Virus record (IMG/VR): IMGVR_UViG_3300037485_001710 | Coordinates: 1-25,864 of that record | Length of the DNA: 25,864 nucleotides | Source of the DNA: a virus | Reading direction: 5' to 3' (one strand) | Part shown: in pieces, positions 9,511-25,864 of the stretch | How positions within the stretch are numbered: the first letter of the stretch is position 1 | Layout: every line of letters begins with the position of its first letter | Made by a program: the position numbers and the translations under genes | Notes under the pieces: model-generated | The model's input: only the letters and a program-made list of their open reading frames with translations | Database searches by the model: none | What the model was told of the DNA's origin: nothing

Positions 9511-10179
9511 ATGTCTAGTATTCCTTTTAAACAATTCGTTCATAAAGATTTATTAATTGAAGGTGAAATAAAAGAAGCTGGTATAGATGGAAAACGTCTA
9601 TACCAAACTCCTGAAGGTATTTTTCCTTCTGTAACCTCTGTTGTTGGATTTAAAAAACAACAATTCTTTGCTGAATGGAGACGAAAGAATCCAGAGGAAA
9701 GCAAACGAGTTTTAGCTAGAGGTACTAAGTTTCATGGTATTATTGAAAAATATTTAAATAATGAAGATTTAGATATTGATAATATGCATTCTGGAATGAA
9801 ATCTTTATTTTCAATTATAAGACCAGAAATAGATAAGATTGATAATATTGTAGCACTAGAAACTCCGCTATGGTCTAAAATACTTCAACTGGCTGGTCGT
9901 ACCGATTGTATTGCAGAATATGATGGTAAATTATCAATTATAGATTTTAAAGCAAGCACTAAAGAAAAACGTGAACGTGATATTGATAATTACTTTACGC
10001 AAGCAACTGCATATTCATTGATGTTTCAGGAACGTACTGGAATTATTATTGAAAATTTTGCTATTTTAATTGCGTGTGAAGATGGAAGACCACAGGTATT
10101 TCAAGGAAATCCACTGAAATATGTCAGAGAATTAAAAAATCATATTACATATTATAGGAATCATAATGGCTTGGGATAA
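9511..10179 (+). CDS. PD-(D/E)XK nuclease, RecB/Cas4-like exonuclease (222 aa)
   Basis: The nuclease core is visible in order: R70-G-x-x-x-H75 in the helix, E117, GRTD with D132, D145-F-K147 (the D-x-K strand), and Q164xxxY168. These are the RecB/Cas4-type signatures of PD-(D/E)XK exonucleases, which cut or resect DNA with a divalent metal. The N-terminal PSVTSVVGF segment also occurs in phage members of this family. It would process host or phage DNA during replication and recombination. Its sigma70-like promoter suggests early expression, unlike the late genes around it. It overlaps the next gene by 14 nt. No Fe-S cysteine cluster like that of Cas4 is visible, so exonuclease is safer than Cas4. 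Confidence 0.8.
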   Translation: MSSIPFKQFVHKDLLIEGEIKEAGIDGKRLYQTPEGIFPSVTSVVGFKKQQFFAEWRRKNPEESKRVLARGTKFHGIIEKYLNNEDLDIDNMHSGMKSLFSIIRPEIDKIDNIVALETPLWSKILQLAGRTDCIAEYDGKLSIIDFKASTKEKRERDIDNYFTQATAYSLMFQERTGIIIENFAILIACEDGRPQVFQGNPLKYVRELKNHITYYRNHNGLG

Positions 10180-16814: not shown

Positions 16815-16842
16815 AGTATAACATATAGAACTTTTGTGTCAA
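16815..16842 (-). promoter_or_regulatory. Near-consensus sigma70 promoter of the leftward early operon
   Basis: Minus strand TTGACA (16837-16842), a 16-nt spacer, TATACT (16815-16820). It is the best sigma70 match in the window. The -10 box ends 6 nt before the ATG at 16808. Its -35 box abuts the plus-strand CTAAATA box at 16843-16849. Confidence 0.7.
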
Positions 16843-16849
16843 CTAAATA
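16843..16849 (+). promoter_or_regulatory. Late-box variant CTAAATA
   Basis: ACTAAATA ends 5 nt before the ATG at 16855, with no ribosome-binding sequence between. It directly adjoins the -35 box of the divergent early promoter. Confidence 0.4.
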
Positions 16850-16854
16850 ATAAT

Positions 16855-18198
16855 ATGAAGAATAAAGGTTATTACGGTTGGATTCATTCCTTAAACGAAG
16901 CCGCTATGCAATCTCGCCAAAATGGGATTAATATGCTAGCTGAACAAGCCGCACGTAAAGGTGAAATGCTTAATGAGGCAAATGATCGAGAAACACCATC
17001 AATCAATACTCGTATTAAAGGTAATCCCAGAGCCGGTAATAGAACAGAGGTAGGTGAAGATGATCCGAGCCCTACAACAGATATATCTAAAGGATTTTTA
17101 AATTTATTAGCGAATATAAATTATGGTAAAGATAGTGGAGATCCTGCAACTCATGGAGTTGCTCCGCTACCAGCTAAAGATCAAATAACCTTGGGAGCTA
17201 AGGGTAGAGTTCCAGAATTTGAAGGTAAAAATAAACGGATTGTGCCTCTTACAGGTAGTCAAGGTCCTGGATTTGAAAGAGCAATCCGTAATATTACAAG
17301 TATGTCACAGGGAGTACAGAATGCAGGAAAATCTCCTTTTGATGATACTGGTTCTGTTGAGATTCCAGATGTTGAAGGTTATGAACCAAATGATCGTACT
17401 CCGAGTAAAATGGTACCAGATGTTGATATATACCGAGAGATTAGAGCAACGAAAGATGCTGAATTAGACTCTCCTAGAGGAATTAAGAATTCACGAGCTG
17501 GTGAAAAAGCCAGATTAGCTGCCGCCAAATTAACAAAACAAAGAAATTCTGCTCCAAATTTAGAAGTTGCTAATAGAGATGGTGATTATGATGCCGATTC
17601 AGGCGATGCACTAGTACAAGGACGATTGGCACAAGCTAATGCAACAAATTTTAGTGATCCAACGGGTGCACAAGCAAGAATTGAAACTGGTAATCCAGTT
17701 ATGGGTGATGATGAGATTGTAGCAAGAGCTGGTCAAATCTCACGTGCTGTGAATGCCCCTAAAAGAGTTAGACTTCGCGGTGAATGGCCTCAGACAGCAG
17801 AAAAATTAGCTACTTCTGCTGGAGTAGAAAGTGTAAAGTCAAAAGAAGATGTCAATGCTCTTACACAGGCTGCTTTGTCAAACCTACCATCAAGAATGCA
17901 AGATGCCCGAGCACAGGATAATGTTCGAAGAAACGATAGATCTAGAATTATCGCACTTGCTGACGCAAAAGCTGCTGCTAGTTTAGCAACGCAAGAAGCT
18001 AAAGGGCAGGGAATGGGTCAACAAGGCATTGCAGATTATGCACGAGATGCTGCAAGAGCAGCTGTTAGAGCAACTATGAGTGATGATAGACCACAAGTCT
18101 TGGGAACCGTTAAAGGTCCACCTAAAAATGCTCGTACTGCTACACGATTAGCTACTGAATCAGTAACAGATAAAATTACAAGAATGTTAAATGGTTAA
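16855..18198 (+). CDS. Disordered, charged late protein with capsid-targeting-like N-terminus (447 aa)
   Basis: The start is the ATG at 16855 (MKNKGYYGWIHSLNEAAMQ), not the TTG seven codons upstream that would lie before and within the CTAAATA box. Residues 13-16 (L-N-E|A) fit the T4 prohead-protease rule (I/L)-x-E|(A/G/S), with E at position 15. The mature part is rich in Ala, Arg, Asp and Gly, basic and mostly disordered, with helical Ala-rich stretches toward the C-terminus (about 375-410). Such composition suits a DNA-associated internal head protein. No enzymatic motif is visible. It ends with a stop shared with the convergent gene at 18195. Confidence 0.5.
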   Translation: MKNKGYYGWIHSLNEAAMQSRQNGINMLAEQAARKGEMLNEANDRETPSINTRIKGNPRAGNRTEVGEDDPSPTTDISKGFLNLLANINYGKDSGDPATHGVAPLPAKDQITLGAKGRVPEFEGKNKRIVPLTGSQGPGFERAIRNITSMSQGVQNAGKSPFDDTGSVEIPDVEGYEPNDRTPSKMVPDVDIYREIRATKDAELDSPRGIKNSRAGEKARLAAAKLTKQRNSAPNLEVANRDGDYDADSGDALVQGRLAQANATNFSDPTGAQARIETGNPVMGDDEIVARAGQISRAVNAPKRVRLRGEWPQTAEKLATSAGVESVKSKEDVNALTQAALSNLPSRMQDARAQDNVRRNDRSRIIALADAKAAASLATQEAKGQGMGQQGIADYARDAARAAVRATMSDDRPQVLGTVKGPPKNARTATRLATESVTDKITRMLNG

Positions 18199-18970: not shown

Positions 18971-19173
18971 TGAAAAAGTTGATTGAAGGTAATGTTTATA
19001 ACGTTCAGCAAGTTAGTACACTAAAACCCGATTCTTCAAAAACCGGACTACATCAATGGACTACTGAAATGCGTAAACAAGTAATGGAAAAATTACGTGG
19101 GTACGCCCCAGAAAAGGTTGATGCGATTATTAAAGCAACTTTTGGTGATATTATGGACTCAAAAGATATTTAA
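18970..19173 (+). CDS. Small late protein (67 aa)
   Basis: The start is taken at ATG 18970 (MKKLIEGNVYNVQQ). A longer reading from 18919 is rejected because it runs through the divergent promoter and the start of the opposite gene. L4-I-E6|G7 fits the prohead-protease rule. The C-terminal half is helical (LRGYAPEKVDAIIKATFGDI). There is no ribosome-binding site; the CTAAATA box ends 5 nt before the start. Its 3' end overlaps the convergent gene by 15 nt. No family is recognised. Confidence 0.45.
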   Translation: MKKLIEGNVYNVQQVSTLKPDSSKTGLHQWTTEMRKQVMEKLRGYAPEKVDAIIKATFGDIMDSKDI

Positions 19174-19356
19174 TGTATTTGCCATTTTTGAATTGCTGTT
19201 AAAGTGTTCGTTGAACTGCTCTATCAATTTTTCCTTATGGTCAACTAATCTGTTATATTCCTTTAAACTAGTCTTTCCATCGGTTTCACACTTACCAATG
19301 TGCTTTAAAGTTTCACCATAGTCATAGATCATTTCTTCTAATTTCTTATTGGTCAT
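19159..19356 (-). CDS. Small coiled-coil protein (65 aa)
   Basis: Starts MTNKKLEEMIYDYGETLKH and is almost wholly helical with charged heptads (LVDHKEKLIEQFNEHF). It is preceded on the minus strand by a sigma70-like promoter, which marks it as early. The message would have a leader of only about 3 nt. It overlaps the convergent late gene by 15 nt at the 3' end. No family is recognised. Confidence 0.5.
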   Translation of the reverse strand: MTNKKLEEMIYDYGETLKHIGKCETDGKTSLKEYNRLVDHKEKLIEQFNEHFNSNSKMANTLNIF

Positions 19357-19358
19357 AT

Positions 19359-19366
19359 TATAAATA
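19359..19366 (+). promoter_or_regulatory. Late promoter box TATAAATA for the RCC1-lyase gene
   Basis: Exact TATAAATA 35 nt before the ATG at 19402. A GGGGAAAG sequence lies in between, rather far from the start. The box overlaps by one base the -10 region of the divergent early promoter. Confidence 0.6.
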
Positions 19367-19401: not shown

Positions 19402-22400
19402 ATGCTAAACAATATATTAAAAAGTCAAAATTCTTCTTTTTCATCAATTGGATTAGCTACTTGTTCTGGTGCTTTGTTATTCTATATAAGAAAAAACGGA
19501 AGTCTAGGATATATTTCTGATAATATAACAAATTATCGAAATCAGGGAATTAATATGACTCCTCCCAATGGCTTGGGAAAATGTAAACAAGTTGCTGTGG
19601 GATATCGATCTGCAGTTGTTTTAAAAACTGATGGCACTGTTGTTGGATGGGGGGATGATGGAAATACAAATCAAACCAATACCCAATATTTGATGGAACA
19701 GTTGACCCAAACAGGCAAAAAAATTACCAAAATTGCTGCTGGTGCATATCATTATGTTGCATTATTAAATGATGGTTCAGTAGTAACTTGGGGAAACAAT
19801 AATGCGAGTGCCCAATTAAGTGATCCCAATACGGTTTGGTCACCTGTAGGTTTGATTCCAAGACCAACTGCTGCTGAACATCCTTATATTATTGGATATA
19901 CTGCTTATAATATTTGGGAATATAAACAAGACGCTGCTACTTTTGCCGGTACAGTTTCTTCTCCAACAGTATGTGTCCCTAGTCCAGATCCAAATATATC
20001 TTATAGACAATTTAGAAATTTGGCGTATGGTTGCCCATTACATAATGGTGAATCATATGATCCAGGAAATCCAAGTGGAGCATATGATACTCCTTATATA
20101 AGACCCCCAGGATCATCGTATGGGGGAACATATCCAATTCCCAATGCTGGTAGTTTTGCATGGGGGGGACAGCTAAATTGGCTTAACGATACTGGTGCTC
20201 CATACGATTATCAATTTTCACGTGCTACTGTAGGTGATACTAATAGTGTTAATTATAGTGGTACTGGAAGTAGTTGGCTTAAAAGCACTTCACATTTAAC
20301 AATGGCATCTGGTTGTTACAACGGTGACTGTACCTCACCAAATTCACTTTTTGGTACATCTGGTAAAAAATATACAGATATAGCTGCTGGTAGAGGTCAT
20401 ACTATTTTATTAACGGAAGATGGAAACATTGAAACGTGGGGGGAGAGTTGGTTTTATACAATTACAGGCAGTGGTGTGCAAGGAAATCTTGGTTGGGGCA
20501 GAGTTGGATCGGGAATAATTAATGGAATAAATACCGAAACAAATAATGGGTGGGGAAAAAAATACCCGTTTCCACCTGCTCCACTTGGAGATAATACTGC
20601 TCCAACAGTTAAACTTTTAAAAACTACTCCAGGTTTGGTAAAAGCAATTGGAACAGGATATTATACGAGTAAAGTTATTAAAAGTGATGGTTCAATTTTT
20701 GCATGGGATAGAAATGAATGGGGTGAATCTACACCCTTTTTTAACTCAGATGGAACTTCTGGAATTCCAACGGGTCAATTCAAACAAGTAACTGGTGGAT
20801 ATCATCATACGGGTGCATTACGAGAAGATGGCACAGTTGTATGTTGGGGAGAAAATAATTCGGGTGAATGTAATGTTCCGGTTGGATTAAAAAATTGTAT
20901 TCAAATAAGTGTAGGAACAAGATGGACTGCTGCTTTAAGAAATGATGGTATGATAATATTTTGGGGAGAAGTGGATGTTTTTGGTCCAGGGTATACTGCA
21001 GTAAAAGATGTAAATAATATTAAAATGACTGATTTGGTTATTAATACTGCGGTTCAAGATAATATTGAAAAATTAGATACCAGTATAGAAGTTAGTACAG
21101 ATGCTATGAATTTGGATTTTACTAATGCTGAAAAATCTAGTAAAATTCCAGTACTATTACAAAACAATATTAAATACGGACAGCTAGCATATGGAAGTAG
21201 TGGAATATGTGGTTCCAACTTTACTGTTAACGAAGCGCAATTCAAATCGTTTTTAAGTGATTCCCTTTCTGGTTATCTTTCAAATACAGGATATACAAGT
21301 TATTTTGGTACATCTTTACATTCTTTAGTTTTAGATTATGAAAATGAGATAACAAATTATATCAATGGAGATGTAGATCCAATATCTGGGTCTTCCTGTG
21401 AAAAAGCTTCAAATCTTCTTAATACGCTTTTAGTTTATGCTAAAGATGTTTCTCCAAACTCAATTGTATATGAATATAATGTACCAAACTTGCCATATTA
21501 TTTCGCATTTACAGAAGGAAATGCTTGTACATGGTATGGAAAATCTGGTGTATCAACATTACAATATGAAACTGAAAAATCTAGATTATTAAATCAACAA
21601 AAATTAAAACTCCAATATTTTAAAAAGTCTAGTGATTACATAAACATTGCTTCATATCCAACTTATACTGATAATTTTTATGCTTATTCTTCAGAAGCTA
21701 CACAACAATGGATATACTATGGTTTATGTGGTGCAGCTCAATCTTATATAACAGAATATCCAATTGATAAACCATTAAATATTTTTACAACCTTTACAAC
21801 AGCTGGTGGTAGTGAATATGTATTAACAGGTACAGCTAGTAATGCAATGACTGGTTATACCTCATTACAAAATTACCAATCGTTGGTGAGTTATAATTCA
21901 CATCTTGGAATTTATAATTTTAAACCAGCAACAGATATTGGTTGCAGAAAAGCATTTATGTGGTTTCCTTTATTATATACAATAAATCTTGCAAAATCAC
22001 CAGCAGGAAATTGTTGGGCTACAGGTAGTGACATATATGCTACAAGAAAAGTATTAAATGATCTTTGGTGTGATACACAAACTTCAATATATACAATTCC
22101 AGAAACTGAGTTTTCAAAATACGCATACAAATATACTTTACCTTTAGATGATGATGCTATTTGGTCTGGGTCTAAAAGTCTTGTAGGCTCATGTGTTTCT
22201 CCCGGTGGTATATTTGCTGATGTTAGAGCAAAAACATTTCAGGCAGGAATAACTAAAATAATTCAAATGACACGATTATTTAAGTCATGGGCAGGAGATA
22301 CTGGACCTATGACTGAAGATTGTGCTACTGTTATTGGAAGAACAACACCATTTGTTCAGGGTCTTACCGCTTATAATGGAAACTTATCATACGTTCCATA

Positions 22401-24426
22401 TGATCCAAGTATCTTTACCACAACTGGTTCAACTGTTACTGCTCAGTTGGCTTCTTTAGCAAATAATTATTTACCAACAGGACAAACAGAAACCGGAAGA
22501 TATACTAGAGCATATAGAAATGCTGATGTTCCATTATACAATAGATATGATTCTACTATAACACCTAATGGTGCTTTGTCAAATTGTAGTAATCCAATTA
22601 TTACACGAATTGTTGCTCTGACTGGCTCAGATACTAGTATAGGAGACTGGATTCGTACAAAGGGATTTGATTTAGCCTTTGGTTGGAAAGTTGGTGATGC
22701 AAGAGTTGCTGATGGACGTTCTATCTCTCCTGGAAGTACAGCATATCAAGCCACAGTATTAAATAATGCTAATACCATTTTAAGTGAAATTGCTACTCAT
22801 GTTCCATTTGAAAGATATGGATGGACTATTGGTGATTGTGATTTTAATTCTAATTTATTAATTTATTCGGCAAATGAGCCCATCAATGATGGAAAGTATC
22901 TAGGAAGTGCATGGTATAATAATGGTGTGATTTCTATGATGCATGCATTGGGTACGGCTGGCATGACAACTGGTTTAGAAACTAAATTAAGAGGATTACT
23001 TGAGGGTGAAGTATATGGTTTAATTGAAAACTGGGTAGAAAAATATGGATGGTATACTAAAGGGCAGTTAACAGGAATGCCTACTGGATCGGGGCAACCA
23101 AACACTAATCAATGGATTGAACCAGCTGCAGCTTTACTAAACATTTCTTTATATCTTGGAGATAAAAAGTTCTTACCAGCATATAATCTTGGTGTTGCCC
23201 TATTAGCTGAATCTTTTGCTTATGAAGGTGCCGATGGTGGATTTGCTGAAGGCTTTGGTTACGCTCAACAAACTGTTGGTGAAATGGTAAATTCAATTAA
23301 TTATATGGTTGCCACTGGAGATACACGACTCGTAGATCCAATTAAGTTCCCATTTTTACAAAATTATTGGCAATGGGCTATTGATTGCCAATTGCCTGGC
23401 AATTATATTATTAATTGCCAAGATAATAGAGGTGGTCAACAAGCAAATTATACTATAGGATATTATTGGCCATCCATTCTTGCAAGTGCATTGTCATATC
23501 AGGGTAATACAGCATTAGCTAATTTTAAATATCTATTCCCTACGAGTCTTCCTAATTTGCAAGGTTTGCAATATACTATTGCGGCTCAAGGTATTACTGC
23601 AGCATTAACAATTCCAAACTATAAGTTTTATCCAGATAAACAACAAGTTATTTGGAGAACGGGTAGAGATAAACCATCAGTAATTGGAAATCCATATGAT
23701 GTTGGACTATCTACATTTGGTAATACAGCTACACCCCATTATGCTATCTGGGCAAAGGGATCCTCAGTTAAAGAAGGACACAAACATACCGATCAAGCAC
23801 ATATAAGTGTGTATCAAGGATACAAAGTTATTCTTATGGATTGTGGTATTGATTATGAAACATCAAATCCATTATTAATAAATCCCATAGATACTTTACA
23901 ACAATCTACTGGTCATAATATTATGCAAGTTGGTGCTGTAGATAAAAGTATTATAGTTGCTGCTCCTATTACAGTTACTACGCTTGGTGCAACTGGAGGT
24001 AATATTACAATTAATGGAACATCTGCATATACTAATATTAATACCTGTACAAGAAATATTATATGGGGTGCAACTGGATTTAATGGTCCATTAACTGTAA
24101 CCATTTTTGATAATTTTAATAAAACTACCGGAGTAACAGCAGGATTAGAAGTTTATAGATTGCATACAGGAAATACTACTGGTATGACTATTACTGGAAC
24201 TGGAGCTGGTTGGACCGCTTCTTGGGATAATGTTACAATAGGTATTACTAGTAATGTTAATATTACTGTAGGGCAAACCGGATTTAATGATTTTACTCAA
24301 TTAGTTGCAAGTGGGACAAACCTAGGTAATGCTAGAGTTCACAAAATGCTTAATATTGGTACTGTAAATACAATACCAGCCGGTAATACCTTTAGTTTAA
24401 CTACAAGGGTTATTGTTACTCCTTAA
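19402..24426 (+). CDS. RCC1-type beta-propeller fused to heparinase II/III-like polysaccharide lyase (1674 aa)
   Basis: Residues about 17-523 carry seven RCC1-style units (near 17, 61, 107, 324, 413, 460 and 499), each of the form hydrophobic-A/S-x-G-x-x-x-(S/T/H)-x-x-L-x-x-D-G-x-(V/I)-x-x-W-G. A roughly 190-residue insertion lies between the third and fourth. After a long central region, residues about 1130-1370 look like the (alpha/alpha) barrel of polysaccharide lyases, with N1236-Q-W1238 and Y1287 as candidate active-site residues. They are followed by the heparinase II/III beta-sandwich signature: G-H1460-K-H1462-T-D1464, D1480-CGIDYE, and G-H1505-N1506. Lyases of this group cleave acidic polysaccharides by beta-elimination. 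In a late phage gene this points to a tail-borne depolymerase acting on host capsule or exopolysaccharide. The propeller may mediate attachment. Substrate and virion location are inferred. Confidence 0.75.
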   Translation: MLNNILKSQNSSFSSIGLATCSGALLFYIRKNGSLGYISDNITNYRNQGINMTPPNGLGKCKQVAVGYRSAVVLKTDGTVVGWGDDGNTNQTNTQYLMEQLTQTGKKITKIAAGAYHYVALLNDGSVVTWGNNNASAQLSDPNTVWSPVGLIPRPTAAEHPYIIGYTAYNIWEYKQDAATFAGTVSSPTVCVPSPDPNISYRQFRNLAYGCPLHNGESYDPGNPSGAYDTPYIRPPGSSYGGTYPIPNAGSFAWGGQLNWLNDTGAPYDYQFSRATVGDTNSVNYSGTGSSWLKSTSHLTMASGCYNGDCTSPNSLFGTSGKKYTDIAAGRGHTILLTEDGNIETWGESWFYTITGSGVQGNLGWGRVGSGIINGINTETNNGWGKKYPFPPAPLGDNTAPTVKLLKTTPGLVKAIGTGYYTSKVIKSDGSIFAWDRNEWGESTPFFNSDGTSGIPTGQFKQVTGGYHHTGALREDGTVVCWGENNSGECNVPVGLKNCIQISVGTRWTAALRNDGMIIFWGEVDVFGPGYTAVKDVNNIKMTDLVINTAVQDNIEKLDTSIEVSTDAMNLDFTNAEKSSKIPVLLQNNIKYGQLAYGSSGICGSNFTVNEAQFKSFLSDSLSGYLSNTGYTSYFGTSLHSLVLDYENEITNYINGDVDPISGSSCEKASNLLNTLLVYAKDVSPNSIVYEYNVPNLPYYFAFTEGNACTWYGKSGVSTLQYETEKSRLLNQQKLKLQYFKKSSDYINIASYPTYTDNFYAYSSEATQQWIYYGLCGAAQSYITEYPIDKPLNIFTTFTTAGGSEYVLTGTASNAMTGYTSLQNYQSLVSYNSHLGIYNFKPATDIGCRKAFMWFPLLYTINLAKSPAGNCWATGSDIYATRKVLNDLWCDTQTSIYTIPETEFSKYAYKYTLPLDDDAIWSGSKSLVGSCVSPGGIFADVRAKTFQAGITKIIQMTRLFKSWAGDTGPMTEDCATVIGRTTPFVQGLTAYNGNLSYVPYDPSIFTTTGSTVTAQLASLANNYLPTGQTETGRYTRAYRNADVPLYNRYDSTITPNGALSNCSNPIITRIVALTGSDTSIGDWIRTKGFDLAFGWKVGDARVADGRSISPGSTAYQATVLNNANTILSEIATHVPFERYGWTIGDCDFNSNLLIYSANEPINDGKYLGSAWYNNGVISMMHALGTAGMTTGLETKLRGLLEGEVYGLIENWVEKYGWYTKGQLTGMPTGSGQPNTNQWIEPAAALLNISLYLGDKKFLPAYNLGVALLAESFAYEGADGGFAEGFGYAQQTVGEMVNSINYMVATGDTRLVDPIKFPFLQNYWQWAIDCQLPGNYIINCQDNRGGQQANYTIGYYWPSILASALSYQGNTALANFKYLFPTSLPNLQGLQYTIAAQGITAALTIPNYKFYPDKQQVIWRTGRDKPSVIGNPYDVGLSTFGNTATPHYAIWAKGSSVKEGHKHTDQAHISVYQGYKVILMDCGIDYETSNPLLINPIDTLQQSTGHNIMQVGAVDKSIIVAAPITVTTLGATGGNITINGTSAYTNINTCTRNIIWGATGFNGPLTVTIFDNFNKTTGVTAGLEVYRLHTGNTTGMTITGTGAGWTASWDNVTIGITSNVNITVGQTGFNDFTQLVASGTNLGNARVHKMLNIGTVNTIPAGNTFSLTTRVIVTP

Positions 24427-24446: not shown

Positions 24447-24454
24447 TATAAATA
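24447..24454 (+). promoter_or_regulatory. Late promoter box TATAAATA
   Basis: Exact TATAAATA ending 5 nt before the ATG at 24460 with no ribosome-binding sequence between. In T4 late promoters transcription starts about 6 nt after the box, which would place the start site on the ATG. Confidence 0.6.
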
Positions 24455-24459
24455 CTCAT

Positions 24460-25864
24460 ATGCCGCATCCAAATAATGATTTTATTAAGAAATTTATAGG
24501 AGAAGCTCGAGTAGATCCCAAGCAACAAGCCGCTTTGTTAAAAAAACAAAGAATGGATAAATATTATCAATCTTTGCAAGAAACTAAAGTTGCACCGGTA
24601 ATTGCAGAAAATACCAAGAAATCTATTGAGTCTACAATTCAAAAGATTTTTTATAGAGAAAAAGATACGTACGAAACAGCTTTAGTAGAAGCTAAACAGT
24701 TTGAAGGTAGGTGGGTTGAAAAAAGAACTGCTGATGGTATTTTCTATTATAATGCACAGCAAGATGTATGGATGAATACATTCGGAGTTATTAAGAAAAC
24801 TCTGCAAGAATTGCTTCTCTTTACAGTTGGTTATGATGGTGATGAAAAATCTACCACATCTTCATCTTTATCTTTTGCTTCTCAATCGTATTTTTCAGAT
24901 GATGGAAGTAAACTTGCATTATATTCTTTTGATATAGGTAGTCAGCAATCAAGTATTGGTGTGTATGATATATCATATTCTCCTACCTTAACAACAACTC
25001 TCTTAGACACAGTATCTTTGGGGGCTGTTCCATTTACAGCACAATCAAATGAAAAATGTTTTGTTTCTGATGATGGAACCCATTTGATAACAAGTTGTCC
25101 GGATAGTCAATCAGTATATTTATTTGATGTTGCTCAAAATTCTTTATTACAAACAATTACAGAAAATTATAGTAATTTTGGTAGTAAAATTGCTGTGGAT
25201 AAAGATTTTTATGGTATGGCTATCAGTACAAATGATTTAACACGAGATCCAAGCTCTACTGATACAAGAGTTTCTTCTTATAGTGTAAGTTCACCTATAA
25301 TGTATTATAAGAGAAACTTTGGTTCTAGTAATACTCAACAATTTAAAAAGATTCATAATCATAATGCTATTACAAACTATAGACATTCTGGACTAGCAAC
25401 GTGGGTTGGTGTTGGACTTATCATTAATAAAGCAGATTATTATAATGATCCACCTGCAGGATCATTGAACAATACATGTGGTATTAATCGTTGTGATGAT
25501 ATTGCATGTAAAGGATATAATTTTGCAATTTCTAATATTGCACTTGAAGCTGACCAGATTAATTATAAAGCACAATTTCCTAATTTATCCAATTCTAAGT
25601 TTAATATTATAAAAGAAGTTGGATTTACTTTTGCTCCAAATTATACTGATAATATGGTATATAAAATGTTGGGAGCAACAGGAAATGTTGCATATCCGTT
25701 TTTCACTGGAATTACTACACCAATACAAGTATACACCGATGAATTTTTAACTAATACCGCGTTAAGTGATTATTATATGGAAGGAACTGTTGGTTTAAAG
25801 AATTTTAGTATTGTAAGAAAAATAGATAATCAATATATTTACGATAACAGTTATCGAGATTCGG
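24460..25864 (+). CDS. Beta-propeller-like late protein with capsid-targeting-like N-terminus (partial, 468 codons seen)
   Basis: The frame is open from ATG 24460 to the window edge, so the C-terminus is missing. It opens MPHPNNDFIKKFIGEARVD; the F-I-x-E|A-R-V part closely resembles the leader of T4 internal proteins (…EFIAEARV), with E at position 15. A helical region follows (about 20-75), then beta sequence with propeller-type blades: YFSDDGSKLALYSFD then VYDIS, and CFVSDDGTHLITSCPD then VYLFDV (about 145-230). These are typical of WD40/YVTN-like repeats. The rest is neutral and beta-rich. It follows the RCC1-lyase gene and may belong to the same structure. The leader instead argues for packaging in the head; the sequence does not decide between these. 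Confidence 0.5.
   Translation, partial: MPHPNNDFIKKFIGEARVDPKQQAALLKKQRMDKYYQSLQETKVAPVIAENTKKSIESTIQKIFYREKDTYETALVEAKQFEGRWVEKRTADGIFYYNAQQDVWMNTFGVIKKTLQELLLFTVGYDGDEKSTTSSSLSFASQSYFSDDGSKLALYSFDIGSQQSSIGVYDISYSPTLTTTLLDTVSLGAVPFTAQSNEKCFVSDDGTHLITSCPDSQSVYLFDVAQNSLLQTITENYSNFGSKIAVDKDFYGMAISTNDLTRDPSSTDTRVSSYSVSSPIMYYKRNFGSSNTQQFKKIHNHNAITNYRHSGLATWVGVGLIINKADYYNDPPAGSLNNTCGINRCDDIACKGYNFAISNIALEADQINYKAQFPNLSNSKFNIIKEVGFTFAPNYTDNMVYKMLGATGNVAYPFFTGITTPIQVYTDEFLTNTALSDYYMEGTVGLKNFSIVRKIDNQYIYDNSYRDS

Follow-up and report, generated by a model that had tools for sequence, protein, structure and literature searches.

We found that a T4-like phage encodes an RCC1 propeller, a middle part, and a heparinase II/III-type enzyme in one polypeptide chain. 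The gene lies in the window (the whole 25,864-nt stretch of viral DNA that was analyzed, a fragment of a virus record) as an ORF without interruption, coding for 1674 aa followed by a stop codon (positions 19402–24426, + strand). We propose, with a probability of about two in three, that the product is a late-expressed host-surface protein in which the toroid and beta-sandwich lyase domain would cut a uronic-acid coat, the propeller and middle region would be exchangeable, and the whole would be either carried on the virion or released at lysis.

Results

Architecture of the Fusion Protein

The following parts were distinguished in the gene and its product:

19402–24426, + strand: 1674-aa propeller–lyase fusion protein (ORF bounds; homolog L009, full length, 52% identity, identical domain order)
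19402–21057, + strand: seven-bladed RCC1-type propeller, residues 1–552 (Pfam RCC1_2, model, fold matches)
19816–20337, + strand: insert between propeller blades 3 and 4, residues ~139–312 (low model confidence; conserved TGAP.DYQF.R stretch)
21085–22341, + strand: middle region, residues ~562–980 (conserved in L005, L007, L009, and L020; absent from L016)
22342–24423, + strand: heparinase II/III-type lyase domain, residues ~981–1674 (model, fold matches, PL33 profile, L033 BLASTP)
22342–23604, + strand: (alpha/alpha)-toroid half of the lyase, residues ~981–1401 (DSSP of the model)
23605–24423, + strand: beta-sandwich half of the lyase, residues ~1402–1674 (DSSP of the model)

On Pfam RCC1_2 the N-terminal part scored 106.6 bits (cut-off 22; E 3.6e-31), and it also matched WD40_RLD with E 3.9e-35. 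The AlphaFold model of the propeller and the middle region, based on 12 homologous sequences (mean pLDDT 48.2), placed the propeller at residues ~13–552 with seven three-stranded blades (17–39, 61–84, 108–130, 324–347, 413–436, 460–483, and 499–522), bearing out the seven RCC1-type units listed in the initial annotation. The units are unevenly spaced because ~170 aa (residues ~139–312) are inserted after blade 3, ahead of blade 4. Fold comparison of the seven-bladed model returned UVR8 (Z 28.8) and RCC1 (Z 24.2) as the best matches, and among phage proteins gp131 of phiKZ (Z 19.0). The TGAP.DYQF.R stretch in the insert was highly conserved in 10 of 10 propeller sequences.

The propeller had initially been taken for the virion attachment domain. 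This role was not supported, since the propeller is replaced or internal in the relatives: L005 and L007 have unrelated GH-like modules instead, L008 has the propeller alone, and in L010–L014 it is embedded in proteins of about 3000–4000 aa, that of L010 also containing fibronectin III repeats and a beta-helix. Judged by these comparisons, the propeller seems to be a module that can be swapped and that serves for binding or as a spacer.

The stretch between the propeller and the lyase turned out to be shorter than the ~600 residues estimated before, i.e., about 430 residues (~553–980). For the middle region within it (562–980), neither a Pfam match nor a solved relative was found by sequence. 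An origin of this region by divergence from the GH-like modules of L005, L010, and L015 was not supported, as profile comparison gave a probability of 0.1–0.2% only; the modules themselves were related to one another (E 1.2e-6).

Family profile searches, including Pfam, revealed no match to a beta-helix family anywhere in the fusion protein, and no right-handed parallel beta-helix is seen in the two models, one of which contains the propeller and the other the helical toroid with its beta-sandwich. Outside the RCC1 part, no significant match was obtained in the phage family library. Two weak full-length matches, one unnamed and one from Tomelloso virus, were found among the BFVD viral structures.

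The C-Terminal Domain Is Homologous to Heparinase II/III-Type Lyases

In the model of residues 890–1674, DSSP assigned helices up to residue ~1394 and strands from ~1402, that is, a helical half followed by a beta-sandwich. With a mean pLDDT of 53.5 the model is usable at the fold level only, and the orientation of the two domains is poor (rmsd ~13 Å over the full two-domain match). All 25 Foldseek matches with E < 0.001 were lyases of the (alpha/alpha)-toroid type or the epimerase related to them. PL33 came first (E 2.9e-9), followed by PL35, PL15, PL12, PL17, and PL21; the aligned part comprised residues 92–785 of the lyase model.

The sequence searches led to the same superfamily. A profile of the viral alignment (the window protein and six further viral sequences) found the PL33 structure 8r73 with E 7.6e-6, and the profile of nine homologs, extended by the bacterial L032 and L033 from a whole-genome search, found it with E 6.6e-9 and with both halves covered. 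The window lyase and L033 shared 25% identity over 447 aa (BLASTP, E 8e-23). On Pfam Hepar_II_III_C (PF07940, cut-off 24), L033 (50.3 bits) and L032 (38.6 bits) passed the cut-off, and the window protein stayed below it (14.6 bits, E 0.024). Homology to the heparinase II/III superfamily was thus demonstrated independently of the model, because the profile matched PL33 and the two bacterial homologs passed Pfam. The motifs GHKHTD (1459–1464), DCGIDYE (1480–1486), and GHN (1504–1506), read earlier as a heparinase II/III signature, are all present. Such a reading is insufficient by itself, as the window protein falls below the Pfam cut-off; the lyase call was settled by the homologs and the fold search. 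Hence, profiles and the fold-level model confirm the C-terminal domain as an (alpha/alpha)-toroid plus beta-sandwich lyase homolog of the heparinase II/III superfamily.

PL33 was the best solved match by both profile and fold, with the VIA Z of several families lying within 1 of each other. The PL33 enzymes BtPL33HA and BcPL33HA (PDB 8r6z, 8r73) have in common with the window lyase the two-domain build of an (alpha/alpha)6 toroid and an antiparallel beta sheet, as well as the N/Y/H set and the second Tyr. They differ in that identity in the fold alignment is ~14% and that the studied PL33 enzymes come from bacteria, the window lyase from a phage, where it follows propeller and middle region in the chain. 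The fold is also shared with PL35 GAGases, PL12 heparinase III, PL21 heparinase II, and the PL17, PL15, and PL39 alginate lyases, but the domain is too distant from any single numbered family for assignment. Sequence search of the annotated phage collection gave nothing significant for the lyase, and PHROGs and NCBIfam held no matching family.

Predicted Catalytic Residues

The key residues of BtPL33HA are N238, Y291, and H444, with Y470 above the dyad (PMC11848413). In the profile alignments they pair with N1234, Y1287, H1460, and Y1485 of the window protein, respectively. The predicted active site comprises:

23101–23109, + strand: Asn1234-Thr-Asn1236, putative charge-neutralizing Asn pair (N1234 spaced as N238 of PL33; N1236 invariant)
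23260–23262, + strand: Tyr1287, predicted catalytic Tyr, pairing with Tyr291 of BtPL33HA (alignment)
23779–23793, + strand: His1460-x-His1462-x-Asp1464, the predicted catalytic His, pairing with H444 of BtPL33HA, and probable ligands of a metal (alignment)
23854–23856, + strand: Tyr1485, pairing with the second active-site Tyr470 of BtPL33HA (alignment)
23914–23919, + strand: His1505-Asn1506 (GHN), likely metal/active-site loop (invariant in seven viral and two bacterial sequences)

As read from the alignment, the putative catalytic set Asn/Tyr/His occurs in the right order in the window lyase. N1236, Y1287, H1460, H1462, D1464, Y1485, and H1505 are invariant in the seven viral and two bacterial sequences. 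N1234, the residue paired with N238, precedes Tyr1287 by 53 residues, a spacing exactly as in PL33; in the bacterial relatives N1236 rather than N1234 is invariant, and all viral copies have both, so that the charge-neutralizing Asn may be either of them. PL35 enzymes combine the Asn/Tyr/His triad with an HxHxD motif bearing metal ligands, H403 and D405 in GAGase II, to which H1462 and D1464 correspond; H1505 is probably the counterpart of H457 of GAGase II, judged by order only (PMC12088678).

Two rival readings of the domain were weighed against these data. It could be a sugar binder that has lost catalysis, i.e., an adhesin of lyase fold. Phage receptor-binding proteins can retain dead enzyme folds, and Asp1480 is replaced by Glu in a second lyase clade (L016, L022) and in the bacterial relatives. 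On the other hand, the Asn, Tyr, His, Tyr, and HxHxD residues are invariant in all nine sequences, down to 24% identity, and selection on the lyase is purifying (dN/dS 0.21 vs. L005), which makes an adhesin improbable. The other rival, a uronate C5-epimerase or another non-cleaving enzyme of the toroid fold that modifies the coat, draws on dermatan sulfate epimerase (Ds-epi1), which uses the same fold and dyad (PMC11848413) and appeared in the match lists (6hzn, Z 10.4; profile E 0.077). Among solved structures the PL33 lyases are nearest in both sequence and fold, with far better E-values, and the bacterial relatives found are Hepar_II_III-type proteins; we regard an epimerase as very improbable. 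A cleaving lyase is the reading retained below.

A Bacterial Relative in a Gene Cluster

The first scan of bacterial genomes for relatives of the lyase found nothing, and the second yielded L030, from a contig of a bacterial MAG. This protein, of which a part is present, begins like a signal peptide and is 31% identical to the toroid half; its gene adjoins genes for a polysaccharide deacetylase/DUF3473 protein, an epimerase, and a formyltransferase. This neighborhood looks like a polysaccharide biosynthesis cluster, a context that suggests exopolysaccharide as the kind of substrate.

Predicted Late Promoter and T4-like Context

The upstream region holds two features of interest:

19159–19356, − strand: divergent upstream gene, 65 aa (marks the common locus in L005, L007, L008, L009, and L020)
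19359–19366, + strand: T4-type late box TATAAATA, 35 nt upstream of the start codon

The late box noted in the initial annotation is kept at the orthologous position before the counterpart of the fusion gene in L005, L007, and L009 as TATAAATA and in L008 as TCTAAATA; a late box also precedes the related gene of L016. Over the whole window the enrichment of TATAAATA was not significant (8 found vs. 4.85 ± 2.3 expected), so only the positional conservation counts.

The Gp23 capsid gene was found in the relatives G002, G009, and G012, the nearest annotated relatives of the G002 protein (~55% identity) being mostly from Synechococcus phages. The window and G002 have gene content in common, and the exonuclease gene of the window (9511–10179) has 68–79% identical counterparts in G001–G005 and G013. 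An SU10-type capsid was sought and not found in a search run without a positive control. By its box and its T4-like relatives, the fusion gene can be classed as a presumptive T4-type late gene.

The next gene (24460–25863, + strand), truncated where the contig ends, is preceded by a separate TATAAATA at 24447–24454. The box stands only 5 nt before the ATG, and therefore transcription from it would leave almost no leader. The sequence of the product looks propeller-like, and no homolog was found.

Late expression would leave two destinations for the protein. It may be a soluble enzyme, not a part of the virion, that leaves the cell at lysis and removes extracellular slime or helps progeny caught in it to escape. 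Free depolymerases are known in some phages, the gene has a predicted late promoter, and family searches recognized no known virion anchor or anchoring domain in the fusion protein. Against this, other large phages have RCC1 propellers in their virions, and the propeller–lyase gene of L016 begins 99 bp downstream of gp23, with an extra ~230-aa N-terminal region in its product that could be an anchor. We consider a purely soluble enzyme unlikely, though the more serious of the rivals discussed; a position on the virion, at the tail or the baseplate periphery, is the most likely one for a depolymerase of this kind.

Exchange of Domains at One Locus

The divergent gene at 19159–19356 and its neighbors are conserved in L005, L007, L008, L009, and L020. 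Since these upstream genes are conserved and the late box is in an equal place (L005, L007, and L009; TCTAAATA in L008), we regard the sites as one locus. Its occupants vary. The L009 protein has propeller, middle region, and lyase and is 52% identical to the window protein along its entire length. L008 encodes a propeller and nothing else (543 aa). In L005, L007, and L020, large GH-like modules are combined with the middle region and the lyase, and there is no propeller. In L016, located elsewhere, the extra N-terminal region is followed by propeller and lyase without the middle region.

The closest relative changes by segment, being L007 for the upstream flank (86–92%), L008/L009 for the propeller (70%), and L005 for the lyase (86%). 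One border could be placed:

22351, + strand: recombination border, residue ~984 (identity jump vs. L005)

In the comparison with L005, identity rises from 50% aa/61% nt at residues 922–983 to 95% aa/89% nt at residues 984–1043 and stays near or above 87% aa for ~480 residues past the border. The fold match begins at practically the same point (residue ~981), which argues for exchange of the lyase domain as a unit. Unless the window contig, which stems from a metagenome collection, is chimeric, the domain was probably swapped in this way.

Several further observations were made in this region and in the relatives. The 454-aa gene at 16834–18198 (+ strand) is a second gene with a conserved start and a variable end: its first ~48 residues are 54–78% conserved in six related contigs, the remainder differs, and the counterparts are open frames of 208–296 aa. 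L005 (906–6740) and L007 (855–6728) carry tandem ~950-aa modules that Pfam does not recognize. They are related to segments of L010 and L015 and to a protein of L003 (E 1.2e-6) and may represent a glycan-active family not yet described. In L020 (7500–7600) a stop and a frame change interrupt the gene within the middle region; the split may be genuine or due to an error in sequencing. Behind the lyase, L003 (8193–8400), L007, and L020 share the conserved tail NAFAWQWPN.WVWSG, and in L003 the frame changes directly after it into an ORF of 1297 aa.

Discussion

From the comparisons above we infer catalytic activity, the class of substrate, and attachment to the virion. The fusion protein would be made late in infection and most likely built into the tail, or else set free at lysis to act against host slime. 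Its lyase would act by beta-elimination, cutting an exopolysaccharide or a capsule that contains uronic acid. In this scheme the charge of the carboxylate would be neutralized by Asn1234/1236, and Tyr1287 together with His1460 would abstract the proton at C5 and supply one to the leaving group. Propeller and middle region would bind or act as spacers, keeping the enzyme on the cell coat.

Parts of this picture have precedents. RCC1 proteins were reported in virions of phage W70 by mass spectrometry (ORFs 237–239) and in GAP32 (GAP_001), and the propeller of phiKZ gp131, also seven-bladed, was located at the baseplate periphery. All are RCC1-type proteins of large contractile-tailed phages, and no lyase is reported on them in the portions of those accounts used here. 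Unlike them, the window propeller has the ~170-aa insert and is exchanged between genes. Toroid-type depolymerases have been predicted in phages as well. DepoScope listed 11 (alpha/alpha)-toroid and 844 beta-helical proteins among 984 phage proteins with a polysaccharide-degrading fold, its authors remarking that some uncommon folds were not yet studied in phages (PMC11326577), and a candidate was described in a Klebsiella phage (PMC11448410). The window lyase has the predicted fold type in common with these candidates, set beside it by description only; the excerpts of the two papers drawn on here describe neither a propeller fusion nor an exchange locus.

The presumed role, cutting host surface polysaccharide, is like that of the beta-helical trimeric tailspike depolymerases. 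The window protein lacks the right-handed beta-helix, although beta-helix domains are present in related propeller proteins, e.g., L010. The earlier view of a different design thus holds for the build, unlike that of beta-helical tailspikes; the toroid domain as such is not new, having already been predicted in ~1% of the phage candidates, as far as the cited part of the survey goes (PMC11326577). A propeller–lyase fusion and an exchange locus were not found in the open-licence papers searched. What is new is the fusion and the locus exchanging propeller, GH-like modules, middle region, and lyase, with a border at the lyase start; RCC1 propellers in virions and predicted toroid depolymerases were known from the material consulted.

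More tentatively, and at somewhat below even odds, the fixed late locus may serve this group of T4-like phages as an exchange site. Propeller, GH-like modules, middle region, and lyase would recombine there at domain borders behind one conserved promoter, giving non-beta-helical, possibly monomeric virion depolymerases from bacterial exopolysaccharide clusters.

Altogether, the sequence comparisons suggest that the fusion protein belongs to a rare type of enzyme, modular in build, that cuts capsules or slime. In the surveys as cited here, the predicted folds of phage depolymerases are overwhelmingly beta-helical, and toroid lyases of phages are listed only as rare predictions. A defined lyase domain with a predicted catalytic set, bacterial relatives, and swapped partners makes the question of how phages change the targeted sugar coat directly testable, and the lyase family offers candidate enzymes for acidic exopolysaccharides.
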